A DNA stretch of 51,142 bases, taken from IMG/VR virus record IMGVR_UViG_3300033552_000014, positions 1 through 51,142 of that record; one strand, 5' to 3'. This DNA comes from a virus. A program made the position numbers and the translations under genes. The number at the start of each line of letters is the position of its first letter. Positions within the stretch are counted from its first letter, which is position 1. The notes below the pieces were generated by a model. The model was given only the letters and a program-made list of their open reading frames with translations, was not told where the DNA came from and searched no databases. Below, one piece after another: positions 15,154 through 30,396 of this stretch.

Positions 15154-15229
15154 CTCTTATTGGGCTAGCGGCTATGCCTCCTTGTTTGGAACGAGGAAAT
15201 CGAAGGTTCGAGTCCTTCATGGGAGACCA
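15154..15229 (+). tRNA. tRNA-Pro (TGG)
   Basis: Acceptor CTCTTAT/ATGGGAG, anticodon stem CCTTG/CGAGG with loop TTTGGAA (TGG), T loop TTCGAGT, discriminator A, CCA. Flanked on both sides by long-stem hairpins. Confidence 0.88.
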
Positions 15230-15405
15230 ATTTTATTAGTACACTGTAAGTGATGGGGATTATCCATTACCTTGGGGCGTAGACATACTAACATAGTGAA
15301 CGGCCGTTCACGGTATGAACCGCTCGCAGCGTGTATAAGCCGAAATAATTACTCGGAATAAAGTCACGGCGTAACTACAGTGTTACAGTGTACTATTAAA
15401 ATTGG
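15227..15405 (+). ncRNA. CCA/TGG trailer hairpin of tRNA-Pro
   Basis: The tRNA CCA begins CCAATTTTATTAGTACACTG and two more bases, pairing over 22 bp (one mismatch) with a segment at 15384-15405 that ends TTGG. The enclosed 135 nt contain further stems such as GTGAACGGCCGTTCAC. The following 105 nt to tRNA-Ala hold no gene. Confidence 0.75.
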
Positions 15406-15510
15406 TAATAGCGATGTTCCGTTTACGAGAACTAGCAACAAGACTAAATCTAACTTTAACCTATTTGCTTAGGCGTATGTTCACTAATAGTCTTTACCTT
15501 TCTAATTTTT

Positions 15511-15584
15511 GGGGTTATAGTTCAGTGATAGAACGCTGGCTTTGCAAGTCAGATACCAGAGTTTGATTCTCTGTTGCTCCACCA
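15511..15584 (+). tRNA. tRNA-Ala (TGC)
   Basis: Acceptor GGGGTTA/TTGCTCC (one mismatch), anticodon loop TTTGCAA (TGC), T loop TTTGATT, discriminator A, CCA. Confidence 0.88.
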
Positions 15585-15792
15585 TAATTACGTACGTACT
15601 GCTAACCTAGTAGGAAACTACTGCCCGTGTACGCGGTCTATATTAAGAGATTAGCACTTAGTTAAACGGTCTTCCCTTAGACCCTAAACAAAGGCAAGTT
15701 TGAAGATAACGGAAAACTTCATATGATGGATGAGAAATGTATACTGATGTAGCTGTCTCCATTCTAGGCTATTTCACAAACAAGGAATTTTT
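15585..15792 (+). other. Intergenic structured region, no gene seen
   Basis: About 208 nt after tRNA-Ala. Small stems such as GGTCTT..AGACC and AAGTTT..AAACTT are visible, but no promoter, gene or tRNA. Confidence 0.4.
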
Positions 15793-15870
15793 ATGCGCAA
15801 ATTTATTCAAATTAATTTAAAGAGTCAGGTTACTGGCTGGAATAAACACGTCTTTAAAGCAAGCCCGTAA
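15793..15870 (+). CDS. Possible 25-aa basic peptide
   Basis: AAGGA at a good distance precedes an ATG opening 25 codons, MRKFIQINLKSQVTGWNKHV and five more, then a clear intrinsic terminator. Ribosome site plus terminator make a real micropeptide plausible; function unknown. Confidence 0.5.
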   Translation: MRKFIQINLKSQVTGWNKHVFKASP

Positions 15871-15892
15871 TCTAGAAATCTCTTAGATTAAC

Positions 15893-15916
15893 AAGGGCCT
15901 TAGGGCCCTTTTTTAT
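15893..15916 (+). terminator. Intrinsic terminator
   Basis: AAGGGCC, a 4-nt loop, GGCCCTT, then TTTTATT: a compact GC stem with a U run after the 25-aa peptide. Confidence 0.8.
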
Positions 15917-16139
15917 TGCCTGCTAGTAGCAAGGTGTCTAGACCGAGTGGCGCGAGTAAGGCCTCACCCCTATTAGTATAAGTTCGCAACTTGTATGATC
16001 AGATAGCTGCACGATGGTACGCAGAACAACATATGTTAGCACTACGCCTACTACTAGAGATAGTAGGTAGAGAGCTAAAAAGGTCCTAGCCTTTTAGCTC
16101 AATAATACCTGTGATGGGTAAAGAGAGTGTTAACATATG
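15917..16139 (+). ncRNA. Structured leader of tRNA-Thr(GGT), long outer stem
   Basis: CATATGTTAGCACT (16030-16043) pairs with AGTGTTAACATATG (16126-16139). Inside are CCTACT..AGTAGG and GAGCTAAAAAGG..CCTTTTAGCTC. The outer stem ends on the first base of tRNA-Thr. An AAGTTCGCAACTT stem lies near 15987. No gene. Confidence 0.5.
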
Positions 16140-16214
16140 CTGTTTTAGTTCAGTTGGTAGAATTTGCCCTTGGTATGGGTAAGGTCGTTGGTTCGAGTCC
16201 AGCAAGCAGCACCA
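16139..16214 (+). tRNA. tRNA-Thr (GGT)
   Basis: Acceptor GCTGTTT/AAGCAGC, anticodon loop TTGGTAT (GGT), T stem TTGG with loop TTCGAGT, discriminator A, CCA. Confidence 0.88.
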
Positions 16215-16218
16215 CATT

Positions 16219-16347
16219 ATGAAAAAATTATACACCCCAACATATAAATCTTATTTGCTATTTGTAAAAAGAAAAAACAGGGATATGGTACTTATTTGGC
16301 TAAAAAAGGCGTTTTGCAAGTCTTTGGTTTTTGATCGCGGAGAGTAG
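16219..16347 (+). CDS. Possible 42-aa basic peptide directly after tRNA-Thr
   Basis: The ATG lies 4 nt after the tRNA CCA, with no ribosome site; the 42 codons begin MKKLYTPTYKSYLLFVKRKN. After 3' processing of the tRNA the mRNA would be leaderless. Basic with hydrophobic stretches. Real status uncertain. Confidence 0.45.
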   Translation: MKKLYTPTYKSYLLFVKRKNRDMVLIWLKKAFCKSLVFDRGE

Positions 16348-16357
16348 TTTTTCAAAC

Positions 16358-16386
16358 TTGAATAGTTAACTCTTTCGCCGTATAAT
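16358..16386 (+). promoter_or_regulatory. Sigma70-type promoter
   Basis: TTGAAT (16358-16363), 17-bp spacer, TATAAT (16381-16386), upstream of the acidic 78-aa gene. Confidence 0.75.
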
Positions 16387-16411
16387 TAATACTTAAACAG
16401 GAAAAAGCAAA

Positions 16412-16648
16412 ATGAAATCAATCTATTATGTAATTACTGACAGTGGCGATGGTGCTAACTATATTGAGTGGCATAAAACCATGTCCGCAGAAAAGATAGC
16501 TAAACTAGAGTCTGAGGATGAGTATGGTAGATACTCTTCAGGTGACGGATTTCAGTGTACGGAGCTAAAGTTTCCTGATGATTTTGATGTTGAAACTTTT
16601 GCTGAAACGAACCACATTTATTGGTTTGAAGACGAGCAAAAAATTTAA
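16412..16648 (+). CDS. Hypothetical acidic 78-aa protein
   Basis: 78 residues, MKSIYYVITDSGDGANYIEW onward, rich in Asp/Glu and aromatics. It begins like the 92-aa protein at 12575 (short beta strand, then G..W), so the two may be related. AGGA precedes the start. Unknown function. Confidence 0.65.
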   Translation: MKSIYYVITDSGDGANYIEWHKTMSAEKIAKLESEDEYGRYSSGDGFQCTELKFPDDFDVETFAETNHIYWFEDEQKI

Positions 16649-16649
16649 C

Positions 16650-16678
16650 TTGACCCTAAACTGTATTTATTGTATAAT
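16650..16678 (+). promoter_or_regulatory. Sigma70-type promoter
   Basis: TTGACC (16650-16655), 17-bp spacer beginning CTAAACTG, TATAAT (16673-16678), right after a stop codon. Confidence 0.8.
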
Positions 16679-16697
16679 TATCTTTTAAGGGATAATT

Positions 16698-16811
16698 ATG
16701 ACTCAAATACAGTATCGGAATAACATTATCAACACACTAATGGTTTTAGGCAGCTTGTCATACGCTCAAGCAGCACATATGTATTATTGCCTTAGAAATT
16801 ACACTAAATAG
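16698..16811 (+). CDS. Hypothetical 37-aa peptide
   Basis: 37 codons beginning MTQIQYRNNIINTLMVLGSL, with AAGGGA before the start and its own promoter. The next ATG follows 1 nt after the stop. Unknown function. Confidence 0.55.
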   Translation: MTQIQYRNNIINTLMVLGSLSYAQAAHMYYCLRNYTK

Positions 16812-16812
16812 T

Positions 16813-16944
16813 ATGAAACTAGCCTTTGTTTTCCAAGCGTTTGGCGGTTTACCCGTTGACGCAGTCCCGGTAGTTATCCCCTTTGCTCAGTGGCATGAAG
16901 CTGCTAATTACGAAGAGTTTACTAATCTGCCACAAAAAAGTTGA
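16813..16944 (+). CDS. Hypothetical 43-aa peptide
   Basis: 43 codons beginning MKLAFVFQAFGGLPVDAVPV; hydrophobic N-terminal half, but too short and proline-broken for a confident membrane span. Coupled to the 37-aa frame; the promoter for the next gene begins at its stop. Confidence 0.5.
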   Translation: MKLAFVFQAFGGLPVDAVPVVIPFAQWHEAANYEEFTNLPQKS

Positions 16945-16945
16945 C

Positions 16946-16974
16946 TTGATGTTTCAATAACAATTTGTTATAAT
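16946..16974 (+). promoter_or_regulatory. Promoter with leaderless output
   Basis: TTGATG (16946-16951), 17-bp spacer, TATAAT (16969-16974); the ATG at 16982 follows 7 nt later. Confidence 0.75.
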
Positions 16975-16981
16975 TAATACT

Positions 16982-17149
16982 ATGAATAAAATTGAAAAAC
17001 AACTGCTTAGAACTCTAAATAAAGCGCTTGCTAATCAAGACGAGCACCCACTATCTAATTCAGCTAACAGAGAAGTCAAAAAAGCCGAGTCTGCTCTTGC
17101 TCACTATATTAGCGAACCAGAGTTGTACTTGGACTTAGAAACACTATGA
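16982..17149 (+). CDS. Hypothetical 55-aa protein
   Basis: 55 codons beginning MNKIEKQLLRTLNKALANQD; helical and soluble. ATGA overlap with the next gene. Probably leaderless. Confidence 0.6.
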   Translation: MNKIEKQLLRTLNKALANQDEHPLSNSANREVKKAESALAHYISEPELYLDLETL

Positions 17150-17322
17150 CTTTTCCTTCAATTTTAACCGGATTTTTAATAACTATTTGGCTAGTAGGTA
17201 TTGTACTAGCTAAAGGCTTCTGGATGACCTTACTAGCAATTACTATTCCTTTTGTGGGTATGTACCTTGCAGTAGAAGCTTACCTAATTCCCTTACTTAA
17301 CAAATTGATTACACTGCTATGA
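17146..17322 (+). CDS. 58-aa two-span membrane protein
   Basis: 58 codons beginning MTFPSILTGFLITIWLVGIV, with two hydrophobic segments (about 5-22 and 26-45) joined by AKGFW. Overlaps both neighbours by 4 nt, so it is translated in a coupled set. A small inner-membrane protein; holin-like size, but no evidence of lysis function. Confidence 0.6.
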   Translation: MTFPSILTGFLITIWLVGIVLAKGFWMTLLAITIPFVGMYLAVEAYLIPLLNKLITLL

Positions 17323-17507
17323 AAATTCATGAAGCAATTGCTATGCTAGAGCAAATGGACCAAAACAAAGAGTGTACAGTTACATTTGGTCAGCCTAAAA
17401 GTATTTTCCCGTATCCGGGAACGCCTTTTCAAAACCACCGCTACTACCCTCCAGTAGGGCCGCCTACCTTCCCAAATTTTTTACCAGGTACTATAACCTG
17501 TCATTAA
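17319..17507 (+). CDS. Hypothetical 62-aa protein with Pro-rich tail
   Basis: 62 residues: a short N-terminal domain (MKIHEAIAMLEQMDQNKECT, then VTFG) common in tailed phages, followed by a Pro/Tyr/Phe-rich tail (YYPPVGPPTFPNF). ATGA overlap with the membrane protein. Unknown function. Confidence 0.6.
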   Translation: MKIHEAIAMLEQMDQNKECTVTFGQPKSIFPYPGTPFQNHRYYPPVGPPTFPNFLPGTITCH

Positions 17508-17508
17508 T

Positions 17509-17643
17509 ATGAAAACACGAAAACAAACGCTAGTGCCGCGAAACCCCTTCGCTGTACTAGCTTCGAAAAGAAAAGCGGGTAGTCATCGCAAGCCTCATAA
17601 GGCCGAGCGCGGTGCCCTAAACCGTGAAGGTTGGGATAGTTAA
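17509..17643 (+). CDS. Small basic phage protein (44 aa)
   Basis: 44 codons beginning MKTRKQTLVPRNPFAVLASK, then a basic RKAGSHRK..KAERG segment. The VPRNPF..A...KAG.H.K pattern is a widespread small phage protein family of unknown function. It ends with a TAA directly abutting tRNA-Lys. Confidence 0.65.
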   Translation: MKTRKQTLVPRNPFAVLASKRKAGSHRKPHKAERGALNREGWDS

Positions 17644-17717
17644 GGGATTAAAACTTTAAAGTGAAGTAACTGGCTTTTAACCAGTAAAATTAGGGGCAGT
17701 ACCTAATAGTCCTACCA
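17644..17717 (+). tRNA. tRNA-Lys (TTT) with aberrant T and D loops
   Basis: Acceptor GGGATTA/TAGTCCT, anticodon stem ACTGG/CCAGT with loop CTTTTAA (TTT), T stem TTAGG/CCTAA, discriminator A, CCA. The T loop is GGCAGTA rather than TTCRANT, and the D loop lacks the usual GG, so the elbow contacts must differ. All stems pair well, which argues for a functional but altered tRNA. Confidence 0.8.
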
Positions 17718-17815
17718 TATTTAAGTAATTTAACGGGCACTTACTTAGCTCGGTGACTTTGACGAGTTGCGAAACCCAAGCGTCAACTTGGATAGATTAA
17801 ATTACTTAAATATGG
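17715..17815 (+). ncRNA. CCA/TGG trailer hairpin of tRNA-Lys
   Basis: CCATATTTAAGTAATTTA (17715-17732) pairs perfectly over 18 bp with 17798-17815, ending in TGG. The 65-nt interior contains TTGACG..CGTCAA around GTTGCGAAACC. Confidence 0.8.
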
Positions 17816-17917
17816 TCAGAGTTACTGAAACGACAATACGTCCAGGCAGTTAAGTTGTGCCTTATATTAAGACTTCTAAGACGGTGTTAAGTATCATCAA
17901 GTAAATAACTCCTACCA
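17816..17917 (+). ncRNA. tRNA-like or decayed tRNA ending in CCA
   Basis: About 100 nt between two trailer hairpins. GAGTTA near its start pairs with TAACTC near its end, followed by CT, A and CCA, as in a tRNA acceptor. I cannot assign a clear anticodon or T arm. Either a decayed tRNA or a tRNA-mimic RNA. Confidence 0.4.
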
Positions 17918-18020
17918 TATTTAAACACATTGTGACGAGTTTAATACAAGTTAAGCCTTCGAAAAGCTTAGCTCCGCTATTAACGGTAGTCTGTGGCCAC
18001 AGCAATGTGTTTAAATATGG
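17915..18020 (+). ncRNA. CCA/TGG trailer hairpin
   Basis: CCATATTTAAACACATTG pairs perfectly over 18 bp with 18003-18020. It shares the CCATATTTAA start with the previous trailer but encloses different sequence (70 nt, with AAGC..GCTT and GTGGCCAC). Confidence 0.8.
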
Positions 18021-18074
18021 TCAGAAGGAGTAATTAGCCTTTCGCCAGACTCGGAGTCATGACCCGAAGAACTC

Positions 18075-18139
18075 CGCAATCGTCTAGTGGTTAGGACACC
18101 CCGGTGAGGGTAAACGTAGGTTCGACTCCTGCTTGCAAT
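18075..18139 (+). pseudogene. Degenerate tRNA-Glu-like sequence
   Basis: TCGTCTAGTGGTTAGGACA is the D region of tRNA-Glu, and GTAGGTTCGACTCCTGC is an intact T arm. About five bases are missing from the anticodon arm (CCC CGGTGA GGG, a 3-bp stem with 6-nt loop) and no CCA follows. Probably a pseudo-tRNA; a functional tRNA-Glu lies at 30416. Confidence 0.6.
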
Positions 18140-18146
18140 GAGTTCG

Positions 18147-18268
18147 CATATTTATAGACTTTAGACGGCCTTAATGTACAAAATACCTTACATTATTAGT
18201 CGGTAGGCTGACACCTGCGAAACAATTACGTTGTCAGACGTAGTTAATATTTAAAGTTTATAAATATG
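18147..18268 (+). ncRNA. Long-stem fold 5' of tRNA-Gln
   Basis: CATATTTATAGACTTTA pairs with TAAAGTTTATAAATATG (17 bp, one G-U). Inside, CTGACA..TGTCAG encloses CTGCGAAAC, echoing TTGCGAAAC in the tRNA-Lys trailer. Confidence 0.65.
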
Positions 18269-18274
18269 TTTTAT

Positions 18275-18348
18275 TGGGGTATAGTGTAATGGTAACACTA
18301 CGGACTTTGACTCCGTCATTCTAGGTTCGAGCCCTGGTGCCTCTGCCA
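18275..18348 (+). tRNA. tRNA-Gln (TTG)
   Basis: Acceptor TGGGGTA/TGCCTCT with an unpaired first position, as tolerated in tRNA-Gln; anticodon loop CTTTGAC (TTG); T loop TTCGAGC; discriminator G; CCA. Confidence 0.88.
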
Positions 18349-18496
18349 ATATTCTTTAGCAATAAAGAATTCCTATGCGAGTTGATGGTAAGTAACTCTC
18401 GCTGTAAATGTCATGTTTAGTGTTTACGCTAACTTGCGCAACCATCTTTAAAATCAAGTTACACGATCGGGCCTAGGACTACCGATCACTAATTAT

Positions 18497-18575
18497 TCCG
18501 TAGAATCCGAGCCAGGTGCACGGACGTGACTGTTAATCACTGACTAGATAGGTTCGAGTCCTATCTACGGAGCCA
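18497..18575 (+). tRNA. tRNA-Asn (GTT)
   Basis: Acceptor TCCGTAG/CTACGGA perfect, D arm TCCG..CGGA, anticodon loop CTGTTAA (GTT), T loop TTCGAGT, discriminator G, CCA. The 148 nt before it (18349-18496) hold only stems such as GATGGT..ACCATC. Confidence 0.88.
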
Positions 18576-18686
18576 GTATATCCTTATGTTAAGCAGGTTA
18601 AGCGCTACCTTTGGCCTATGAACGGTCTTGCTAATAGTTGGTAAATGTGTGCATCAACGTACACCTTAGGGGCCATAAATTTAGAC

Positions 18687-18716
18687 TTGATAGTCTAGTA
18701 TTTTTTACTGTATAAT
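18687..18716 (+). promoter_or_regulatory. Sigma70-type promoter (18-bp spacer)
   Basis: TTGATA (18687-18692), 18-bp spacer, TATAAT (18711-18716), ahead of the D5-like 96-aa gene. Confidence 0.7.
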
Positions 18717-18735
18717 TATCTTTTAAAGGCACTCA

Positions 18736-19026
18736 ATGGCTACAAAGTTTATTTATACAGATACAGAGCTAGCAGAAATCATCGCTAAGTATAACGCAGA
18801 TATTAGTTTAGAAGTTCTTGCCCAAGAATATAATAAAAGTGTTGCTAGTGTACGCATGAAACTTGTAAAACAAGGCGTATATAAAAAAGCAGCATTGCCA
18901 GTAAAAACTACTAAAGCAACCGACACGCTCCCACAATTTGAAAAGTTTCAAATAGCCACAACTAAATCAGGTATTCTTGCACAGTTTAATAGTGCCCTTA
19001 AGGCAGTTGGTCCGGCACTACTATAA
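18736..19026 (+). CDS. D5-family helix-turn-helix protein, short paralogue
   Basis: 96 residues. The N-terminal half, YTDTELAEIIAKYNADISLE followed by VLAQEYNKSVASVRMKLVKQ, reads as a helix-turn-helix; the SVRMKLVKQGVYKK end matches GVRMILVQSGDYVKK of the protein at 30562 and units of the D5-like protein at 35701. T5 D5 is an abundant DNA-binding early protein. This paralogue probably binds DNA as well. Own promoter, AAGG before the start. Confidence 0.7.
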   Translation: MATKFIYTDTELAEIIAKYNADISLEVLAQEYNKSVASVRMKLVKQGVYKKAALPVKTTKATDTLPQFEKFQIATTKSGILAQFNSALKAVGPALL

Positions 19027-19058
19027 ACATCAAACTATCAAGTTTTAAAAATTTAGAC

Positions 19059-19087
19059 TTGATAGTTCTCTGTATTTATTGTATAAT
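19059..19087 (+). promoter_or_regulatory. Promoter for TROVE leader RNA
   Basis: TTGATA (19059-19064), 17-bp spacer, TATAAT (19082-19087). Transcription would start near 19094, about 500 nt before the TROVE start codon. Confidence 0.75.
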
Positions 19088-19105
19088 AGATACTTATTCG
19101 GAAAT

Positions 19106-19371
19106 AATATAATTAAACACTGATATGTAGTGAAGGTTATTAGCAAAGACTTTTTGTCTTAAAAAGGTATACGATGTTTGTACTAGCTAATATTAACCAC
19201 AGTTACTTCATTATACTGTAAATAGTCGTACGGTAAACAAATTCCGTCGTGCTTTACCCTAGTAGGATACTGCATTAGTACTATAACCAACTCGCTTTCT
19301 GGCATTACGAGTTTAAACATAAGGTCAGAGCACTGTAGACGATCAATCTCTTGTTAGTGTTTAATTATATT
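19106..19371 (+). ncRNA. Candidate TROVE-associated RNA: 266-nt closed fold
   Basis: AATATAATTAAACACT (19106-19121) pairs perfectly over 16 bp with 19356-19371, enclosing 234 nt. Internal stems include GGTTATTAGC with GCTAATATTAACC, AGAC..GTCT, GGTAAA..TTTACC and AACTCG..CGAGTT. The 5'/3' end-pairing, its promoter and the adjacent TROVE gene suggest a Y-RNA-like partner or a regulatory leader. It has no tRNA CCA end. Confidence 0.5.
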
Positions 19372-19598
19372 GTAACGTGTGATAAGAACACATTAATATT
19401 TTACATTGAAGTAAATCTTAGCCCAGCATCTGGATAGATGTAAAACGTACCCTTTTATTTCGTAGCGACATTAGACAGTTACTTCTTTTCTATTACAAAA
19501 AACCTAGTCGGTTCGATTCCGGCGTGCCTAGTGGTCATGGTGGCAATACCTGTTTTACCTATTCTCGAAATTTTCCCAATTAAAACTAAAGCAAATTA
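19372..19598 (+). other. TROVE 5' leader remainder with isolated T arm
   Basis: About 227 nt, no credible frame. GTCGGTTCGATTCCGGC near 19509 is a perfect tRNA T arm followed by GTGCCTA, but no matching acceptor or anticodon arm lies upstream, so it is a tRNA fragment or mimic. No strong ribosome site precedes the TROVE ATG. Confidence 0.4.
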
Positions 19599-20879
19599 AT
19601 GTCTTCACTTAATCGCATCAATCAAACTCAATCGCCATCCCAAGTTACTCCTGAAAAGCAGCTCCGCAGACTAGTTATGTCTGCAATGCTATGGGAAAAG
19701 CAGTTCTACATTGATGGACAATCAGTTGCAGAAGCTATCAAAGCTCTGGTTCCTTTAGTTAATCCAAATGTTGTAGCAGTATTAGCTATGCAAGCTCGCG
19801 GCGACTATAAGCTGCGTCATATGCCTTTGCTGTTGTGCCGCGAACTAGCGCGCAGCGGTATGTTGCCATGGAAAGTGCTAAATGAAGTTATTCAGCGTCC
19901 AGACGAAATGTCTGAGTTTCTGGCTATTTACTGGCTAGAAGGGCGCACAGCTCTTAGCAACCAAGTAAAGAAAGGTATTGCTGCTGCTTTTGGTAAGTTC
20001 AATGAGTATTCCCTAGCTAAGTGGGATAAAAACTCCGCAGCTATTAGCTTGCGCGATGTAATGTTCTTGACTCACCCTAAGCCGCAAAACCCAGAACAAG
20101 AAGCTTTGTTTCACCGTGTAGCTAATAAGGATCTTAAAACACCAGATACCTGGGAGACAGAACTCTCTAAGGGAGCAGATAAGGCCAAAACCTTCACTCG
20201 TCTTATGGCCGAGAAAAAACTGGGTGCTCTTGCGTTCCTGCGTAACCTACGTAACATGCTAGAAGCTGGCGTTAGTGCCACGGCTATTAACAACTACTCT
20301 ATTAGTGTTGACGTTGCGCGAGTTCTGCCTTTTAGGTATGTTGCAGCTGCTCGTATTGTGCCAGCAATGGCCCCAATGCTAGAAGCCATGATGGTGCGCT
20401 CGCTTAAGGAAGCCCCTAAGCTCAGTGGGCATACCGCACTATTAGTAGACGTGTCTGGCTCAATGTTTGGCACTAAAATTAGTGCCAAATCCGATCTTGA
20501 CCGATTTGACGCCGCCGCCGCTTTAGCAATGCTTTGCAAAGAAGTTTGCGAAAACGTTGATGTGTATACCTTCTCCAATAGTTTAGTTAAAGTTGACGGT
20601 GTAAGTGGCTTTGCAATGATTAATGCCCTTAAAAACAGTCAAAATAACGGCGGTACAGCTTTGGGTATGGCTATTCGTAACCTTCCTCGAGAATACGGTC
20701 GTTTGATTGTATTTACAGACGAACAAAGTCAAGATGCTGTAGGCGCTGCTCCAGCAGAAAAATCTTACATCATTAACGTTGCTGCCAATAAAAACGGCAT
20801 AGAGCACGCTAGTTATACAAAGATTGATGGCTTCTCAGAGGCTGTTATTGACTACATTCGTGAAAGCGAAAAAGAATAA
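19599..20879 (+). CDS. TROVE-vWA protein (Ro60 / Rsr-like RNA-binding protein)
   Basis: 426 residues. Residues about 15-270 form the all-helical TROVE ring domain (..LRRLVMSAMLWEKQFYIDG.., ..VNPNVVAVLAMQARGDYKLR.., ..LRNLRNMLEAGVSATAI..). Residues about 278-420 are a von Willebrand A domain with a complete MIDAS: DVSGS (284-288), T353 and D374. Ro60 proteins bind Y RNAs on the ring surface and RNA 3' ends in the hole, and act in RNA quality control and degradation. It is shorter than most bacterial Rsr proteins (about 500+). It lies inside the tRNA array between structured RNAs, and its stop codon is the first base triplet of a tRNA-like fold. Confidence 0.92.
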   Translation: MSSLNRINQTQSPSQVTPEKQLRRLVMSAMLWEKQFYIDGQSVAEAIKALVPLVNPNVVAVLAMQARGDYKLRHMPLLLCRELARSGMLPWKVLNEVIQRPDEMSEFLAIYWLEGRTALSNQVKKGIAAAFGKFNEYSLAKWDKNSAAISLRDVMFLTHPKPQNPEQEALFHRVANKDLKTPDTWETELSKGADKAKTFTRLMAEKKLGALAFLRNLRNMLEAGVSATAINNYSISVDVARVLPFRYVAAARIVPAMAPMLEAMMVRSLKEAPKLSGHTALLVDVSGSMFGTKISAKSDLDRFDAAAALAMLCKEVCENVDVYTFSNSLVKVDGVSGFAMINALKNSQNNGGTALGMAIRNLPREYGRLIVFTDEQSQDAVGAAPAEKSYIINVAANKNGIEHASYTKIDGFSEAVIDYIRESEKE

Positions 20880-21020: not shown

Positions 21021-21388
21021 CATATACCTGCTAGATGTGGTAATGCTCTTGCCTAGGCTAACCACTATTAAACTAGACGTAACCAGCCGTGAAAAGGTAG
21101 TATCCGAGACTGACCTCTCAAACTAAAACATTCTTAGTCAGCTTGTTTTATTACACACGCTCTAAAGGTAGTCAGCCCTTGCCCAAAGTTGTGACTCTAA
21201 GTCTCACAAGGACTTAGATAAGTATATGGTGATAAGATTAGATACTTCTTCTGGTAAAAACTCTAATCTTGATTTGTTCCTATACTTATCTTAGTCCTTA
21301 GCGAATTTGACTGTTACTTCCGCTCACATTGGAAGGCCCTTGATACGGCCTTAATCACAGTTAATAATATATTCTAGGATTTCTTTTA
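21021..21388 (+). ncRNA. Structured region before tRNA-Ser with 17-bp stem at 21210-21297
   Basis: Gene-free 368 nt. GGACTTAGATAAGTATA (21210) pairs over 17 bp (one mismatch) with the segment ending at 21297, enclosing a second hairpin AAGATTAGA..TCTAATCTT. Upstream, GACTGAC and TAGTCAG can also pair near 21110-21140. No promoter or frame seen. Confidence 0.5.
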
Positions 21389-22092: not shown

Positions 22093-22182
22093 GGAAGAGC
22101 AACCCAATTGGCGATGGGACCGGTCTTGAAAACCGTCGAGTTAGAAATAGCCTTGAGAGTTCAACTCTCTCCTCTTCCGCCA
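22093..22182 (+). tRNA. tRNA-Ser (TGA)
   Basis: Acceptor GGAAGAG/CTCTTCC, anticodon loop CTTGAAA (TGA), long variable arm, T loop TTCAACT, discriminator G, CCA. Confidence 0.9.
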
Positions 22183-22267
22183 TAATTATACGCTGTGGGT
22201 AACTAGAGTGCGCACATAACAATGAACTAGAGTTCGAGCAATCGAACCTCAGAGCGTATAATTATGG
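22180..22267 (+). ncRNA. CCA/TGG trailer hairpin of tRNA-Ser(TGA)
   Basis: CCATAATTATACGCT (22180-22194) pairs perfectly over 15 bp with 22253-22267, ending in TGG. The 58-nt interior contains GTTCGAGCAATCGAAC. Confidence 0.8.
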
Positions 22268-23369: not shown

Positions 23370-23446
23370 CTCTCTTTAGCACAACTGAATAGTGCATCTG
23401 GCTACGAACTAGAAGGTTGGAGGTTTGAATCCTCTGAGAGAGGCCA
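23370..23446 (+). tRNA. tRNA-Arg (ACG)
   Basis: Acceptor CTCTCTT/GAGAGAG, D stem GCAC/GTGC, anticodon loop CTACGAA (ACG, read as ICG if deaminated), T loop TTTGAAT, discriminator G, CCA. Confidence 0.87.
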
Positions 23447-23526
23447 TAGACTAATATATCTCCTATTCCTTATTTTAAGATAAACGCGTGCAAAATAAGA
23501 GCGGCAAAAGATATATTACTCTATGG
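23444..23526 (+). ncRNA. CCA/TGG trailer hairpin covering the next start codon
   Basis: CCATAGACTAATATATCT pairs (18 bp, one mismatch) with 23509-23526, ending TATGG. That ATG is the start codon of the 96-aa gene at 23523, so an unprocessed transcript hides it. Confidence 0.75.
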
Positions 23527-23813
23527 CTAAATTGTTTTCAACTTTAAAAGACCCTAAGCTGGGCATGCATGACCAAATTACGTTTGGTAAACTAAAAGGT
23601 TGTAGAGTTTGTGATGTTATCCAAGATCACTACGAGTACTTAATCTGGGTTGAAAAAGAAGGTTACTGCAAGTTTCAACAAATAGTAGTAGAAACTATAC
23701 AAGATGCAGCTAATTTTGCAAAGTGGGAAGAGCCTAAAGAAGATAAGGTAGTAGATACCTATGACAAGTTTACTAGGTATGATGACTTCTGGTATGATGA
23801 TATACCTTTTTAA
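23523..23813 (+). CDS. DUF3820-like 96-aa protein
   Basis: 96 residues. The block ITFGKLKGCRVCDV..HYEYLIWVEKEGY matches the small DUF3820 pattern (FGK.KG..l.D....YL.W), also found at the end of exodeoxyribonuclease X-type proteins. Acidic C-terminus. The start codon lies in the 3' arm of the tRNA-Arg trailer hairpin and has no ribosome site. Confidence 0.65.
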   Translation: MAKLFSTLKDPKLGMHDQITFGKLKGCRVCDVIQDHYEYLIWVEKEGYCKFQQIVVETIQDAANFAKWEEPKEDKVVDTYDKFTRYDDFWYDDIPF

Positions 23814-25211: not shown

Positions 25212-25221
25212 GAATACTGAC

Positions 25222-25250: not shown

Positions 25251-25256
25251 TATACT

Positions 25257-25469: not shown

Positions 25470-25496
25470 TCAAAATTTCTTTGGTAAAATACTGAC

Positions 25497-25525
25497 TTGA
25501 TTTATAGGCAAAATATTGATATAAT
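25497..25525 (+). promoter_or_regulatory. Promoter with leaderless output (duplicate)
   Basis: TTGATT (25497-25502), 17-bp spacer, TATAAT (25520-25525), ATG 6 nt later. Differs from the promoter at 25222 by few bases, a local duplication. Confidence 0.78.
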
Positions 25526-25531
25526 TATTAG

Positions 25532-25756
25532 ATGAAAAAAACTTTTAAATTTACATCAATTCAACCAGAAATGGTAAACCACAGAGAGAGTAGTCAACAC
25601 CCAAGTTTAGTAACTCCTGGTGGTTCTACAGCACTTAAAAAAGTACCTGTGTATACAGGAAATGCCATGATTGGTATTTCTGTTATTCATAAATCATGTT
25701 TACAACCAATTTTTAGTAAGCAGGCAGCAATTGACGCTGCCTCCATGCGAAGATAA
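25532..25756 (+). CDS. Hypothetical 74-aa protein
   Basis: 74 residues, MKKTFKFTSIQPEMVNHRES onward; contains GNAMIGISVIHKSCLQPIFS, a pattern met in small phage proteins. Not obviously related to the 70-aa neighbour despite the duplicated promoter. tRNA-Gly follows 2 nt after the stop. Confidence 0.62.
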   Translation: MKKTFKFTSIQPEMVNHRESSQHPSLVTPGGSTALKKVPVYTGNAMIGISVIHKSCLQPIFSKQAAIDAASMRR

Positions 25757-25758
25757 AT

Positions 25759-25832
25759 GTGTGGTTAGTTCAATGGTAGAACAGTAGGCTTCCACCCTTC
25801 AAACATCGGTTCGATACCGTTACCTCACACCA
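25759..25832 (+). tRNA. tRNA-Gly (TCC)
   Basis: Acceptor GTGTGGT/ACCTCAC (one mismatch), anticodon loop CTTCCAC (TCC), T loop TTCGATA, discriminator A, CCA. Confidence 0.88.
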
Positions 25833-25838
25833 ATAAAA

Positions 25839-26144
25839 ATGCAACCATATACAATTAACGAGCTAGAAGAGCTAGCACGCATTATAATGAATCAAACAAA
25901 AACCACAATTCTAAACACTGATATGCTTGTTCAGGGAATCCGCAATAAGCACTTTATTGTAGGTAGCTTTACAGAACACCAAGGCTTTAGTGTTTCCTCA
26001 ACACCAGTTATGCATACTTCGCGGTCACTGGCACGTCAAGAATGTAATCGTCTAGCTAAACTTACCCCAAGTAAGCTTTACATTTTTGTTGAGTTAAGCG
26101 GCGGAGAAATGCAGCCAGCCGTAGTAAACACTATAAGTATCTAA
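25839..26144 (+). CDS. Hypothetical 101-aa protein
   Basis: 101 residues, MQPYTINELEELARIIMNQT onward, with a helical start and a beta C-terminal part (FIVGSFTEHQGFSVSSTPVM, KLYIFVELSG). Starts 6 nt after the tRNA-Gly CCA without a ribosome site. Family not recognised. Confidence 0.62.
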   Translation: MQPYTINELEELARIIMNQTKTTILNTDMLVQGIRNKHFIVGSFTEHQGFSVSSTPVMHTSRSLARQECNRLAKLTPSKLYIFVELSGGEMQPAVVNTISI

Positions 26145-26151
26145 GCTACAT

Positions 26152-26226
26152 AGTTCCTTAGCTCAGGGGTAGAGCAACTCTTTTACACGGAGAAGGTCCA
26201 CAGTTCGAAACTGTGAGGAACTACCA
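26152..26226 (+). tRNA. tRNA-Val (TAC)
   Basis: Acceptor AGTTCCT/AGGAACT perfect, anticodon loop TTTACAC (TAC), T stem CACAG/CTGTG, T loop TTCGAAA, discriminator A, CCA. Confidence 0.9.
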
Positions 26227-26237
26227 TAATTTCTTAT

Positions 26238-26266
26238 TTGAAGTCTTTGTTGATTTTCTGCATAAT
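26238..26266 (+). promoter_or_regulatory. Sigma70-type promoter
   Basis: TTGAAG (26238-26243), 17-bp spacer, CATAAT (26261-26266). Confidence 0.65.
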
Positions 26267-26289
26267 TAAGACATTAATTAGGAAATAAA

Positions 26290-26598
26290 ATGAAAAAGAT
26301 TGTAATTCACTGCACTACCACCACTGGTGGAACCGACTCCTGGGAGTTTTTTGAAGTCCCGAATGATTATTCGGGTAGCTCACTTGATAGTTTAGCCAAT
26401 GAGTGTGCTTTAGGTAACGCTGAAATGTATGGCATTTACCCGCCTTCTGATTCCTATGATGAGTTTGATAATGGAGAACCTGTTGAAGATGACAATGATT
26501 CCACAGACGATAACATAGAAGGCTATTGGGAGCTCTATGACGCTGAAAAACATGATGGGCACACTATGACTGGTGTTCCTGAGTGGCAAACTAATTAA
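26290..26598 (+). CDS. Hypothetical very acidic 102-aa protein
   Basis: 102 residues, MKKIVIHCTTTTGGTDSWEF onward, with an Asp/Glu-rich middle (EPVEDDNDSTDDNIEGYWEL). AGGA precedes the start. Strong acidity might mean DNA mimicry, but no family is visible. Confidence 0.65.
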   Translation: MKKIVIHCTTTTGGTDSWEFFEVPNDYSGSSLDSLANECALGNAEMYGIYPPSDSYDEFDNGEPVEDDNDSTDDNIEGYWELYDAEKHDGHTMTGVPEWQTN

Positions 26599-26608
26599 AA
26601 CACAATAT

Positions 26609-26683
26609 ACTCTTTTAGCTCATTTGGTAGAGCGGCGGACTGAAAATCCGTGCGGCGTGGTTCAAAACCACGAAAGAGTACCA
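26609..26683 (+). tRNA. tRNA-Phe (GAA)
   Basis: Acceptor ACTCTTT/AAAGAGT, anticodon stem GCGGA/TCCGT with loop CTGAAAA (GAA), T loop TTCAAAA, discriminator A, CCA. Confidence 0.9.
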
Positions 26684-26786
26684 ATACGTAAATACTAACA
26701 CTCTTGGCATTCGTGAGGAAGTATAGCTAGCGCTGGTAAAAGTGGGCAGATAGAACCATTTACTTTAGTTAGTATTTACATATTGG
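26681..26786 (+). ncRNA. CCA/TGG trailer hairpin of tRNA-Phe, overlapping tRNA-Asp
   Basis: CCAATACGTAAATACTAAC pairs (19 bp, one mismatch) with 26768-26786. The closing GG is the first two bases of tRNA-Asp, so both tRNA ends can be tied up in one stem. Confidence 0.8.
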
Positions 26787-26859
26787 GGTATTCATATAAC
26801 GGCCATTATCGCGGATTGTCTATCCGTAGACGGGAGTTCGACTCTCCCATACCTCGCCA
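26785..26859 (+). tRNA. tRNA-Asp (GTC)
   Basis: Acceptor GGGGTAT/ATACCTC, anticodon stem GCGGA/TCCGT with loop TTGTCTA (GTC), T loop TTCGACT, discriminator G, CCA. Confidence 0.9.
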
Positions 26860-26865
26860 AACAAA

Positions 26866-27093
26866 ATGAAACAATCAAAACTTGAAGCATACCGCGTGTA
26901 CTTTCTGACCCTAAACTGTTGGAGTTTAGCTATCAGATTTAACTTTGATGAAGCGGAAATCTTGCAAGAATTGCGTAATATACACTTAAATGCTAAAAAT
27001 ATATCTAAACTGCCTAAAAGCTGCCCTGCTTTATTTTACATGCAAGATAAAGTAGCTAAAAATAAATGGGTACAAAAGGTAATAAATGAGTAA
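26866..27093 (+). CDS. Hypothetical 75-aa protein
   Basis: 75 residues, MKQSKLEAYRVYFLTLNCWS onward; helical and basic. Starts 6 nt after the tRNA-Asp CCA without a ribosome site, and overlaps the next gene by 8 nt. Confidence 0.6.
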   Translation: MKQSKLEAYRVYFLTLNCWSLAIRFNFDEAEILQELRNIHLNAKNISKLPKSCPALFYMQDKVAKNKWVQKVINE

Positions 27094-27406
27094 AATGTAT
27101 ATTGCAGTATTAGATGAAGTACCTTCACATATGGTACCAGTACTAGTAGCGCACAGTGTTTTAAATGCTCATATAAAGTTTAGTACCTGTAATGTACTGC
27201 CTAGTTATACTACGTGGCTTAGAGATTCTTTTAAAAAAGTAGTTCTTAAAGTCAACCGTAAAGAGTTTGATAAAATTTCTGAAATTACCGCTGTTTATCT
27301 AGGACATGAAAATACTACTCTAGAAGGCACTAAATCTTGCATTGTTGTATGCCCTAGGGATGAATACCCTAACGTAATTAAATTTGCCAAAATGTGGCAA
27401 CCCTAA
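27086..27406 (+). CDS. Peptidyl-tRNA-hydrolase-like (Pth2-type) protein, tentative
   Basis: 106 residues, MSKMYIAVLDEVPSHMVPVL onward. The start YIAVLDEVP.....V.V.HSVL.A, the middle FKKVVLKV..KEF and the late hydrophobic strand recall phage Pth2-domain proteins (peptidyl-tRNA hydrolase II, which frees stalled tRNAs). Catalytic residues cannot be confirmed by eye. A tRNA-recycling role would fit the tRNA array. Confidence 0.45.
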   Translation: MSKMYIAVLDEVPSHMVPVLVAHSVLNAHIKFSTCNVLPSYTTWLRDSFKKVVLKVNRKEFDKISEITAVYLGHENTTLEGTKSCIVVCPRDEYPNVIKFAKMWQP

Positions 27407-27430
27407 GCCGCCTATGTGCGGCTATTTAAG
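27406..27430 (+). terminator. Possible weak terminator
   Basis: AGCCGC, a 6-nt loop, GCGGCT, then ATTTAAGTTT: short GC stem at the stop codon with a poor U tract. Confidence 0.45.
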
Positions 27431-27435
27431 TTTAT

Positions 27436-27987
27436 ATGCCTAATATCTTTCTAGCCAGTGATCACCATTTTTCCCATGCAGGAGTAATTAAATTCTTTCG
27501 TGAAGACGGCGTAACTGTGTTGCGTGACTTTGCAACCACAGAAGAAATGAATGAGCATATGATAGCTCAACATAATCAAGTAGTAGGTAAAAACGACAAA
27601 GTTTACATGTTAGGCGACGTAGCTTTTAATAAAAAGGGTCTTGCTAATGTGGGGAAGCTAAACGGCAATAAAGTTCTTATTAAAGGTAACCACGATAAAG
27701 AGTCTCTTAATGAGTACATAAAGTATTTTCAAGACATTCGTGGAAGCCATCAATTTGATGGTATGGTACTTACACATATTCCCGTTCACCCTAATAGTTT
27801 ATCACGATGGCCTATTAATGTTCACGGGCACTTACACTCTAACGTAGTAACTATTGAGGGTACCAAAACCCCTGACCCTAGATACTACTGTGTTAGCATG
27901 GAACAACTAGACGACTATACGCCCGTTTCACTAGAAGAACTTAAGCTGCGTATTAAAAATAGACTTGAAGCTTCTGCTGAAAGCTGA
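27436..27987 (+). CDS. Calcineurin-like phosphoesterase
   Basis: 183 residues with SDHHFSH at 8-14, LGDVAF near 55, KGNHD near 79, a THIP and GHLHS near the C-terminus: the metal ligands of the calcineurin-like superfamily, in the compact form common in phages. Substrate unknown. The final codons hold the -35 box for the next gene. Confidence 0.87.
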   Translation: MPNIFLASDHHFSHAGVIKFFREDGVTVLRDFATTEEMNEHMIAQHNQVVGKNDKVYMLGDVAFNKKGLANVGKLNGNKVLIKGNHDKESLNEYIKYFQDIRGSHQFDGMVLTHIPVHPNSLSRWPINVHGHLHSNVVTIEGTKTPDPRYYCVSMEQLDDYTPVSLEELKLRIKNRLEASAES

Positions 27988-27993
27988 TATAAT
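27965..27993 (+). promoter_or_regulatory. Promoter inside the end of the phosphoesterase gene
   Basis: TTGAAG (27965-27970), 17-bp spacer ending at the TGA, TATAAT (27988-27993). Confidence 0.7.
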
Positions 27994-28018
27994 TAAATCT
28001 TACAACGAAACAATTATT

Positions 28019-28417
28019 ATGAAACCTAACCTTTTTGAGTTTCCTAAAACTCCCGCATGGCCGCTCCCTTTATTTTCCACTACAGAATACTTTTCTCCAG
28101 CTACTAAAAGTGTGGTTAAGCCTGTTGTTGAAGATAGTATTGGCATTGTACATATCTATAATCCTGACTACCCTAAAGGCGGTATGACGGTTGCCTACCG
28201 TAAATCTAATCAACATAAATCTGGTGTAATGGTAGATGTAGCTGTGCACGTGTGCTCAAATGCAGACTCTTTTAGTAAGAAAATCGGCAACGCCGGAGCT
28301 ACTGCAAAATTCTTGAATGGCAATACCATTCAGCTGCCCTTACTTAGAGCCTTTGCAAAAGCAGACATTTCTTTTGCCGTTAAAAACGCCTTTACTGCGC
28401 TTAACGAGACTATCTAA
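28019..28417 (+). CDS. Hypothetical 132-aa protein
   Basis: Start set at the ATG at 28019 (MKPNLFEFPKTPAWPLPLFS) because the promoter at 27965-27993 would start transcription after the earlier in-frame ATG at 27965. Compact alpha/beta sequence with a repeated GG/VV pattern; family not recognised. Confidence 0.62.
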   Translation: MKPNLFEFPKTPAWPLPLFSTTEYFSPATKSVVKPVVEDSIGIVHIYNPDYPKGGMTVAYRKSNQHKSGVMVDVAVHVCSNADSFSKKIGNAGATAKFLNGNTIQLPLLRAFAKADISFAVKNAFTALNETI

Positions 28418-28424
28418 CGTATTT

Positions 28425-28511
28425 GCCCCGGTGGTGGAACGGTATACACAGGAGACTTAAAATCTCCCGCCCTATCGGGCTTGCTCGGTTCGAATCCGGC
28501 CCGGGGTACCA
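28425..28511 (+). tRNA. tRNA-Leu (TAA)
   Basis: Acceptor GCCCCGG/CCGGGGT, anticodon stem GGAGA/TCTCC with loop CTTAAAA (TAA), normal long variable arm (CCCTATCGGG), T loop TTCGAAT, discriminator A, CCA. Confidence 0.92.
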
Positions 28512-28516
28512 ATTAC

Positions 28517-28593
28517 AGGTCGATAGCTTAGTGTTCCAAAGCAGCGGCCTCATAAGCCGTTGATCCTGGGTTAGAATCCCAGTCGATCTACCA
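28517..28593 (+). tRNA. tRNA-Met (CAT)
   Basis: Acceptor AGGTCGA/TCGATCT, anticodon stem GCGGC/GCCGT with loop CTCATAA (CAT), T loop TTAGAAT, discriminator A, CCA. One of three CAT tRNAs; elongator Met or Ile(CAT) not resolved. Confidence 0.85.
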
Positions 28594-28614
28594 ATATAAC
28601 TATAAGCGTAATAC

Positions 28615-28986
28615 ATGCAATTTCTTATCTGTCCCGTCCCTAAACTGCATCTACTAATGCTAGACGCTAGTGCGTTGTTCTATAGCCGGCAAGGTACTGC
28701 CTTCTACTACAGTATTAGTTTTACTAACGATAAAGTCGTTATATCCGATACCCTAGGCCGCTCAGTAATTATTAAAGTCTCTCAAATAGAAGAATTACTG
28801 CAAACAGCTATCAACAGCGATAAAGAGTGTGTGTATGTAATGTGTAATGGGTTTTTTGTGCCTTTTGAAGTATCAGAACTACCACATTTAGCAAGAATTC
28901 TTCAACGTATTGTTACCTACACAAACCAAAAAAGAGTACTAGAAAGTATCTTAATTAGTAATCTTGTTCGCGACGCAGAAGTTTAA
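28615..28986 (+). CDS. Hypothetical 123-aa protein
   Basis: 123 residues, MQFLICPVPKLHLLMLDASA onward, alpha/beta with a regular beta pattern (FYYSISFTNDKVVISDTLGR). Starts 21 nt after tRNA-Met. Family not recognised. Confidence 0.62.
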   Translation: MQFLICPVPKLHLLMLDASALFYSRQGTAFYYSISFTNDKVVISDTLGRSVIIKVSQIEELLQTAINSDKECVYVMCNGFFVPFEVSELPHLARILQRIVTYTNQKRVLESILISNLVRDAEV

Positions 28987-29010
28987 AATAATATAGATAG
29001 AGGTATCACC

Positions 29011-29406
29011 ATGGCAAAAGCAAAAAGTAAAACAGCAGTAGCAGCATCTTCAGTTTACAAGACTACCCGTCGCTGGGAAACTAATCGTAAACTAAAACTA
29101 GAGCGCACTATTCGTAATCAGCCCAATAACGAGCAAGCTAAGCTAGCTCTTAAAGGAATGGTTTACAGACGCAAAACCCCAAAAGCACAAGAGTGGTCAG
29201 CAAGTTGGATTGCTACTGCTAAATTGTTTAAACTATTCGGTGGTCGTTTTGATCGCGCTATTATGAGCGCTAATGTAGAAGCAGTTCGTGCAGCACTACA
29301 GGCTCAAAGCCCTGTTGCAGCACGTACAGTGTTGAAGCCTGAAACTAGAGCGGCTATGGCATTTTTCTCTTTTGAGAACCGTGCTAATATTCGTCAGGCT
29401 AAATAA
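29011..29406 (+). CDS. Hypothetical basic 131-aa protein
   Basis: 131 residues, MAKAKSKTAVAASSVYKTTR onward; highly Lys/Arg/Ala-rich and helical, as in histone-like or RNA-binding proteins. GAGGT precedes the ATG. Binding to nucleic acid is inferred from charge only. Confidence 0.65.
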   Translation: MAKAKSKTAVAASSVYKTTRRWETNRKLKLERTIRNQPNNEQAKLALKGMVYRRKTPKAQEWSASWIATAKLFKLFGGRFDRAIMSANVEAVRAALQAQSPVAARTVLKPETRAAMAFFSFENRANIRQAK

Positions 29407-29409
29407 TTC

Positions 29410-29655
29410 ATGAGTTTTTTATTTTACTACTCTATATTTGCTCTTACTACCGCCGTTATGTCCCTGTTCGAATTGCTGTATCCAGTAATTAAAAAGCGAG
29501 AAACTGACTACGGAAAAGTCGATAATAAGGTGGCCACTTACGCAGCCTACCTTAGTATTAGCCTATTAATGGCTCCGCTAGTATTCTTAAGCTGCGTAAT
29601 TCCTTCAATGGGCGAGGTGTACAGAAAGTCGCTTAATAAAGGTATTTTCCCCTAA
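29410..29655 (+). CDS. 81-aa two-span membrane protein
   Basis: 81 residues with hydrophobic segments at about 3-25 (FLFYYSIFALTTAVMSLFEL) and 46-66 (AAYLSISLLMAPLVFLSCVI), and a charged loop between. Probably an inner-membrane hairpin; role unknown. Confidence 0.65.
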   Translation: MSFLFYYSIFALTTAVMSLFELLYPVIKKRETDYGKVDNKVATYAAYLSISLLMAPLVFLSCVIPSMGEVYRKSLNKGIFP

Positions 29656-29673
29656 ACCGTAGAAATTTTATAT

Positions 29674-29702
29674 TTGAAGCCCGTGTTTAAATATTGTATA
29701 AT
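29674..29702 (+). promoter_or_regulatory. Sigma70-type promoter
   Basis: TTGAAG (29674-29679), 17-bp spacer, TATAAT (29697-29702). Confidence 0.75.
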
Positions 29703-29731
29703 TAATACTTAAACACAGAAAGCAATATATA

Positions 29732-30004
29732 ATGAACTTCATAACCTTTGACTATACTAAAAGCGCTGACAAAGTATCTTCACGTGCCTTTTATCCAATC
29801 TCGGTGCCTAATACTATGTATGAAGGCATTGACGTTTCAGCATTGAGTGACGAACTTCAAGCTTTGTTTGTTGCTAAAATGGAAGACGCTAAACTTAGGT
29901 TTCTTAACGAGTGTTTGGCAATTAAAGCAGATTTTGATGTAGTTAATGACTATCGTCGTTTTGATCCTAATAAAATGTCTAATATCAAAACTGAGTGTTT
30001 GTAA
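29732..30004 (+). CDS. Hypothetical 90-aa protein
   Basis: 90 residues, MNFITFDYTKSADKVSSRAF onward. The opening ITFDYTKS..K.S.R....I..P...Y.GID.S matches a small conserved type in T5-like and other large phages (DNA- or WYL-like fragment suspected). Function unknown. Confidence 0.62.
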   Translation: MNFITFDYTKSADKVSSRAFYPISVPNTMYEGIDVSALSDELQALFVAKMEDAKLRFLNECLAIKADFDVVNDYRRFDPNKMSNIKTECL

Positions 30005-30255
30005 TTAAGCCTCGTGTGCTGCCTAAGTGTCTTGCGTTGTTGTGGAGATAAAATGCTTGAACGACGGTACATTGGGTAGTGTCCACTACTTTTAATAGTA
30101 CTTACAGATAGGATACGTCGTCCTTAATAGACGTGTTCCCGTCACCTGGGAACATCGCAGGGAGTTCTTGTAGACTTCTGCTGTGGTGAGTGGACTGGCG
30201 CTGGCTGGCACCGAAAAAGTTTTCTAGCAGGTGTTCTTTAAAAACAGCTGCCCTT
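30005..30255 (+). ncRNA. Structured leader before tRNA-Thr(TGT), no gene seen
   Basis: About 250 nt without a frame. GTTCCC GTCACCT GGGAAC (6-bp stem, 7-nt loop, arm-like) near 30131, GTAGTG..CACTAC near 30078, and GCAG..CTGC around 30160-30180. May be a decayed tRNA cluster or part of the tRNA-like RNA family. Confidence 0.4.
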
Positions 30256-30330
30256 GCCCTTATATCCTTAGTGGTAAAGGTCCTGTTTTGTAAGCAGGGT
30301 TCGGAGGTTCGATTCCTTCTTGGGGCACCA
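30256..30330 (+). tRNA. tRNA-Thr (TGT)
   Basis: Acceptor GCCCTTA/TTGGGGC (one mismatch), anticodon stem CCTGT/GCAGG with loop TTTGTAA (TGT), T loop TTCGATT, discriminator A, CCA. Confidence 0.88.
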
Positions 30331-30396
30331 TATATTAGTATTATCACGGATGCGCAGCAACTTACGGTTCGATTCCGTGATAGTACTAATATATGG
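30328..30396 (+). ncRNA. CCA/TGG trailer hairpin of tRNA-Thr(TGT)
   Basis: The longest stem of the set: 23 bp with one mismatch, from CCATATATTAG (30328) to CTAATATATGG (30396), around a 23-nt loop. The loop and stem end include ACGG TTCGATT CCGT, a T-arm-like segment. Confidence 0.85.

Follow-up and report, generated by a model that had tools for sequence, protein, structure and literature searches.

Long hairpins that begin at tRNA CCA ends are putative closing stems of exchangeable small RNAs in a T5-like phage and in related phages

Results

The DNA stretch considered here comprises positions 1 to 51,142 of the IMG/VR virus record IMGVR_UViG_3300033552_000014 (51,142 nucleotides (nt), hereafter the window) and carries an array of 24 transfer RNA (tRNA) genes predicted by ARAGORN, in which long hairpins start with the CCA end of the preceding RNA. 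The DNA polymerase encoded in the window shares 46-47% identity over 97-100% of its length with those of Demerecviridae, e.g. pVp-1 and DT571/2, and this similarity classifies the phage as T5-like. A search of the window against Rfam at gathering thresholds returned tRNAs only, and a search by E-value added further weak tRNA-type matches and chance microRNA matches.

An earlier note on this DNA had described seven inverted repeats beginning with the CCA of a tRNA or tRNA-like 3' end. All seven are present at their places, and the CCA is paired in each. Six of them follow tRNAs, those for Pro, Arg, Phe and Thr being predicted by ARAGORN and those for Lys and Ser being found by Rfam, whereas no canonical tRNA precedes the element at 17914, and the RNA upstream of it is a homologue of an RNA enclosed by such a hairpin in a relative. 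We regard the hairpins as the closing stems of small structured RNAs located between the tRNAs and refer to these RNAs as cargos. The elements are listed below.

15226-15406, + strand: Pro element; A73-CCA of tRNA-Pro (15154-15229) opens the stem, 24-nt arms (15226-15249 and 15383-15406), 133-nt cargo loop
17714-17816, + strand: Lys element; 20-base-pair (bp) stem from A73-CCA of tRNA-Lys (17644-17717), loop of 63 nt
17806-17924, + strand: cargo RNA X, located after the Lys element and before the 17914 element; stem TTAAATATGGTCAGAGTTA/TAACTCCTACCATATTTAA
17914-18021, + strand: 17914 element; 19-bp stem from ACCA behind cargo X, loop of 70 nt
22180-22267, + strand: Ser element; 18-nt arms with a perfect core of 15 bp from CCA of tRNA-Ser (22093-22182), loop of 52 nt
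23443-23527, + strand: Arg element; stem from G73-CCA, 19-nt arms, loop of 47 nt
26681-26786, + strand: Phe element; stem from CCA, 19-nt arms, loop of 68 nt; the last bases of the 3' arm are the first two G of tRNA-Asp (26785)
30327-30397, + strand: Thr element; stem from A73-CCA of tRNA-Thr, 24-nt arms, loop of 23 nt

The segment 17840-17917, described as tRNA-like before, was rejected as a tRNA because it is homologous to a cargo: cargo X shows 78% identity to the cargo behind tRNA-Pro in L034 (loci of relatives are designated by L-numbers). The stem of cargo X shares its arms with both neighbouring stems, so these pairings are mutually exclusive. The 3' arm of the Arg element (23509-23527) terminates in ATGGC, the start codon of an open reading frame (ORF) at 23523-23813, and a start codon ATGGC within the 3' arm at the same tRNA-Arg slot was also found in L014, L092, L093 and L144. 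Control of the translation of ORF 23523 by the Arg hairpin is possible.

To quantify the hairpins, 922 distinct tRNA 3' ends were collected from the window and the fetched relative loci, many of which are fragments, and stems were accepted at a score of at least 12, with 10 as the looser cut-off and the shuffled downstream 400 nt as control. CCA-anchored stems were present at 52 of the 922 ends and at none of the shuffled ones; repeats of equal length in shuffled spacers, which would have spoken against the elements, thus did not occur. Even at the looser cut-off, the shuffles predict just 2.2 stems for this set. Among the first relatives, 19 of 212 tRNA ends carried a stem scoring at least 12, again with none in the shuffles. 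Within the stem-bearing loci, 426 of 478 tRNA ends have no stem at the cut-off.

The anchoring is sharp: among 71 long-loop helices with an outer end between -12 and +60 of C74, 49 begin at -2 to 0. Measured from the CCA, helix length is about 18-20 bp (17-21 bp in 46 of 52), with loops of 4 to 148 nt. The stems share the loose consensus ACCATATTTTAGCAYAYTA and are therefore not unrelated; together with the common length, this corrects the previous statement that their sequences differ almost completely. A scan of viral contigs with the consensus matched 94 stretches, a number that stands for the scan only. When tRNA and hairpin were folded together with RNAfold, the CCA was paired with UGG in 51 of 52 cases, in 36 of which the acceptor stem was also intact.

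Homologues that were defined by their loops (at most 92% loop identity) retained at least 15 of 19 flanking pairs at 84 of 112 places, compared to 7.2 in shuffled controls. Most of the places failing this count fall in coding or tRNA clusters, and the cargo clusters 33, 47, 90 and 102 were put aside as coding or tRNA sequence. The pairing is thus not lost in relatives, since orthologues found by loop sequence alone retain the stem. In an alignment of 30 stems picked by hand, 93.3% of the cells were paired, double changes occurred at 16 of 19 base pairs, and the covariation score was 0.59 as opposed to 0.18 for shuffled and 0.06-0.13 for slid alignments. MAFFT shifted two of the 30 rows, which lowers this score rather than raising it. 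The excess of stems over shuffles, the pairing kept in homologues and the covariation strongly support the selection on structure that had been proposed for the seven repeats.

The imperfect pairs indicate the strand on which this selection acts. G-U pairs outnumber A-C mismatches on the + strand by 21 to 5 (p=0.0025) and in a symmetric scan by 68 to 38 (p=0.005), from which we conclude that the stems act as + strand RNA.

Clustering of the loops yielded small RNA families, 34 among 48 CCA elements, and one and the same family recurs in several contexts. The cargo of the Lys element belongs to family 7, with further members in other contexts in L031, L033 and L040. Family 4 is located behind tRNA-Thr in four phages, behind tRNA-Tyr in L031 and alone in L037, where its stem reads CTCTTAAA../..TAAGAG. 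Family 6 occurs behind Tyr and Thr, and in L030 it forms a second cassette that comes after another hairpin (AATATATA../..TATATATT). Family 14 was found after Tyr, after a GCCA end and, in L029, on its own (ACTATAG../..CTATAGT). When a CCA end precedes the cargo, the stem has CCA:UGG as its outer pairs; otherwise these are different, but still paired. As CCA:UGG is found just where a CCA precedes, the helix can be assigned to the cargo RNA, by which the CCA is recruited. Judged by their sequences, cargos are exchanged freely between phages and the frame of the closing stem is kept. All 307 cargo matches were in plus orientation versus none on the minus strand, and invertible DNA segments were rejected because no cargo was found inverted.

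A complete tRNA is not required upstream. In 85 elements with an upstream T-arm, the CCA was fully paired in 67. Several of the CCA elements lacking a tRNA come after a short acceptor-like hairpin ending in NCCA, for example GGCTCCC-GCAA-GGGAG-A-CCA in L006, L028, L030 and L040. At the place of tRNA-Arg, L092 contains CTCTCC-TTCG-GGAGAG-GCCA, which corresponds to the acceptor stem of the relatives' tRNA-Arg without its body; behind it come a hairpin of this kind and the ORF that the relatives have there. Apparently, tRNA-Arg of L092 was reduced to a UUCG-capped acceptor minihelix ending in GCCA.

Phage T5 contains a hairpin of the same design. In its tRNA region (GenBank AY543070), RNAIII, RNA2H and RNAIV are annotated as 'stable RNA with unknown functions'. 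T5 RNAI ends in GAGCC-GCCA, and the stem GCCACAATTGA/TCAATTGTGGC, which starts at this CCA and whose last bases are the 5' end of tRNA-His, encloses RNAIII. The slot between RNAI and tRNA-His in six T5-like phages has a constant outer stem and four kinds of loops (37, 80, 93 and 107 nt), the inner pairs varying in step with the loop and the stem totalling 20-21 bp. For RNAIII and RNA2H, the ends given in the annotation are positioned inside longer stems with a 3' overhang of 2 nt, as ribonuclease (RNase) III leaves. In Vibrio phage Ceto, a stem was found at the CCA of tRNA-Val. A literature search on CCA-paired trailers, T5 RNAIII and RNase III in phage tRNA processing returned nothing direct. 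The view that no such family has been described consequently holds for the CCA rule, which is in no description we found, and does not hold for the hairpin design, which T5 RNAIII shares.

Long stems also abut the 5' ends of tRNAs or stand alone, and the CCA cases therefore belong to a wider group of closing stems. Further members in the window are the following.

14091-14162, + strand: closing stem; the 3' arm takes in the GGG 5' end of tRNA-Leu
15022-15152, + strand: closing stem of a cargo RNA, 19 bp, ending 1 nt before tRNA-Pro; outer end without CCA
16023-16146, + strand: closing stem; the 3' arm overlaps the 5' acceptor strand of tRNA-Thr(GGT)
18147-18268, + strand: closing stem of 19 nt, after a degenerate tRNA-like sequence (18076-18136) and 6 nt before tRNA-Gln

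The degenerate tRNA-like sequence at 18076-18136 scores 29 bits with Rfam and has GCA in place of CCA. Ahead of tRNA-Leu, the noncoding element GCGGTGGCGTAACAATTGACTGAACTAGGCTGTCGCCTTGACCTAGTTCCTATAATT is present in tandem copies (13814-14110), and L008 has a similar sequence ahead of a stem at 3737. In four relatives (L034:7092-7189, L008:5572-5666, L013:15398-15512 and L024:44914-45014), stems were observed that appear to be a tRNA-His whose leader and trailer pair as a continuation of its acceptor stem, CCA included.

Permuted transfer-messenger RNAs (tmRNAs) of the betaproteobacterial type lie within the tRNA arrays of five relatives (L007:4074-4472, L008:13825-14266, L009:8807-9181, L031:13965-14331 and L034:13084-13548), which suggests a betaproteobacterial host. 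Close to the array of L013, a group I intron match was obtained (18496-18691; RF00028, 60.7 bits).

The array of the window also encodes a TROVE protein and contains two hairpins next to its gene.

19104-19373, + strand: long inverted repeat preceding the TROVE gene; it occupies the position of cargo family 1 in relatives, a membership that the clustering does not show
19599-20879, + strand: gene of a TROVE (Ro60/Rsr-like) RNA-binding protein, inside the tRNA array
21208-21299, + strand: conserved hairpin 3' of the TROVE gene, belonging to cargo family 0 (17 members including this one)

Relatives of the TROVE protein were detected in 91 phage records, and in relatives of the window hairpin families are located on both sides of the gene. 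For the bacterial Y RNA YrlA (RF02553), no match reached the curated score of 69 bits; the best match in the relatives had 43.1 bits and was located 5' of TROVE, and the best one in the window (E=0.27) lay over tRNA-Trp. Upstream of TROVE, the segment 19460-19545 combines ACAGTTACTTC with a T-arm (GGTTCGATTCC) and resembles two YrlA-like copies in L172. This segment may be a diverged Y RNA beyond the reach of the model.

Discussion

We consider it likely that the hairpins are excision stems of the cargo RNAs which recruit the tRNA CCA as their first pairs and are probably cut by host RNase III. Every cargo (loops mostly 23-148 nt) has a closing helix that is rich in A+U and about 18-20 bp long, and behind a tRNA, a tRNA-like RNA or an acceptor minihelix, the CCA end, usually together with nucleotide 73, forms the first base pairs of this helix. 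As the CCA end supplies these pairs, the helix can stack on the acceptor stem. The 3' arm often extends to the gene that follows, taking in a start codon or the initial G's of a tRNA. Host RNase III would cut within the helix and release the cargo, leaving a few nucleotides behind the CCA for trimming by exonucleases and a short leader for RNase P; the remaining short duplex would then fall apart. The tRNA ends would hold the outer pairs while the phages exchange the cargo. The sequences show the stems with their anchoring, length and covariation, the RNA strand, the exchange of cargos and the parallel in T5; the enzyme, the order of the cuts and the stability of the products are what we infer in this scheme. 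Among the functions proposed for the seven repeats in the earlier note, that of a double-stranded processing site fits best.

Several points weigh against excision by RNase III. Transcription and processing of the elements are putative in this phage, and the covariation set was selected by hand from loop-defined homologues plus some stem-detected ones. No RNase III gene was found in seven phage records, so the enzyme would have to come from the host. The ends of the T5 RNAs were taken from the annotation; the overhang of RNAIV, the end of which was placed on the stem by hand, is 1 nt and not 2 nt, and the 3' end of RNAIII could have been made by RNase P because it coincides with the 5' end of tRNA-His. 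Finally, excision alone gives no reason why the helix takes in the CCA rather than starting behind it.

Alternatively, the purpose of the pairing could be that of a gate which, until the hairpin is cut, conceals the tRNA 3' end of the precursor from exonucleases, synthetases, the CCA enzyme or tRNA-cutting defences. With few exceptions, the CCA does lie at the outer end of the helix, and it was paired in 51 of 52 predicted folds. However, the same cargos occur without an upstream tRNA and with outer bases that are different yet paired, the GCCA hairpin of L092 persists though the body of tRNA-Arg is gone, and the stem stays below the cut-off at 426 of 478 tRNA ends in the same loci. Masking of the CCA as the purpose of the hairpins, as had also been proposed, is thus unlikely and would be a side effect of excision stems.

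It also appears quite improbable that the inverted repeats are mainly recombination sites for swapping cargos at the level of DNA, with RNA pairing as a by-product. Cargos are swapped between tRNAs and phages and a consensus is common to the arms, which speaks for such sites, but the excess of G-U over A-C mismatches on the + strand, the complete lack of inverted cargos and the divergence of the arms by paired changes all argue against them.

The TROVE gene in the array of the window and relatives, the two hairpin families flanking it and the YrlA-like matches directly 5' of it in several relatives raise the question whether the TROVE protein of the phage binds the hairpins as its ligands, like Y RNAs with paired ends. 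We regard such a link as very improbable: CCA stems are present in T5 and Ceto, for which the annotated stretches examined list no TROVE gene, several loci that combine TROVE with a tRNA array lack a CCA stem at the cut-off, and all YrlA matches remain under the curated score. On the first two observations, we treat TROVE as a separate feature. The start codon in the 3' arm at the tRNA-Arg slot (the window, L014, L092, L093 and L144) speaks for a role of the stems as attenuators or in hiding downstream start sites. Such a role is still harder to defend, since most other stems lead into tRNAs or spacers and not into start codons, and the stems are A+U-rich with long loops and without a T run behind.

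Returning to excision stems, one can speculate that T5-like phages possess a cassette system for fast-changing small RNAs, in which tRNA ends and CCA minihelices are fixed docking sites, UGG-ended cargos plug in, a common cut releases them and recombination replaces them, perhaps tracking host defences. We propose this extension tentatively, rating it as less probable than otherwise.

Comparison with known systems

Long near-perfect helices of about two turns enclose stable RNAs in ribosomal RNA and phage RNA precursors and are cut by RNase III. The elements described here likewise form near-perfect RNA helices of about 20 bp. In contrast to the known RNase III stems, they use a tRNA 3' end as their first base pairs. 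Intrinsic terminators were rejected because the stems are A+U-rich, the loops in the window measure 23-133 nt and no T run follows.

Other small or structured RNAs near phage tRNAs differ in their organisation. The species 1 and 2 RNAs of T4 (rnaC, rnaD) are small stable RNAs beside phage tRNAs like the cargos, and were rejected as the same thing because they lack a CCA-anchored long stem. GOLLD and ROOL likewise are phage RNAs without an assigned function that lie close to tRNA islands (PMC12286853); they are much larger than the cargos, and no Rfam match to either was obtained in the loci scanned. YrlA and other bacterial Y RNAs that act with Rsr resemble the cargos in that their ends pair and a TROVE gene is located in the same array, whereas the CCA cargos are below the curated YrlA score and CCA stems occur also in T5.

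The intervening segment of permuted tmRNA (RF04321, RF01850; L007, L009, L029, L031 and L034) is organised as acceptor-ACCA-hairpin-acceptor, with a helix that prolongs the acceptor stem. There, the strand returns to its own tRNA-like domain and the CCA, lying opposite TAAT or TGAT, is only partly paired; the strand of the tRNA elements runs to the next gene, and their CCA is fully paired. A permuted tmRNA segment was rejected for the window because each of its tRNAs lies entirely on one side of the hairpin.

The closest relationship is that to the stable RNAs of T5, which are likewise small RNAs between the tRNAs of a T5-like phage and enclosed in long stems. The window elements sit in the tRNA array of such a phage, and as for RNAIII, their closing stem runs from the CCA of the upstream RNA toward the next gene. 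T5 has one CCA case, behind a tRNA-like RNA, and the window seven, mostly behind tRNAs; the stem sequences and apparently also the cargo sequences are other than those of T5. The T5 annotation contains neither the CCA rule nor the exchange of cargos. The stable RNAs of the T5 tRNA region thereby gain a rule for their structure: the CCA of the preceding RNA starts a helix of about 20 bp. This rule holds in distant T5-like phages in which the inner RNA is exchanged and the frame kept. With this rule, RNAs of the T5 type can be found by sequence alone, their excision and function are testable in T5 and in laboratory E. coli, for which mutants are available, and the release of a tRNA 3' end from a helix that contains its CCA can be studied in a clean case.

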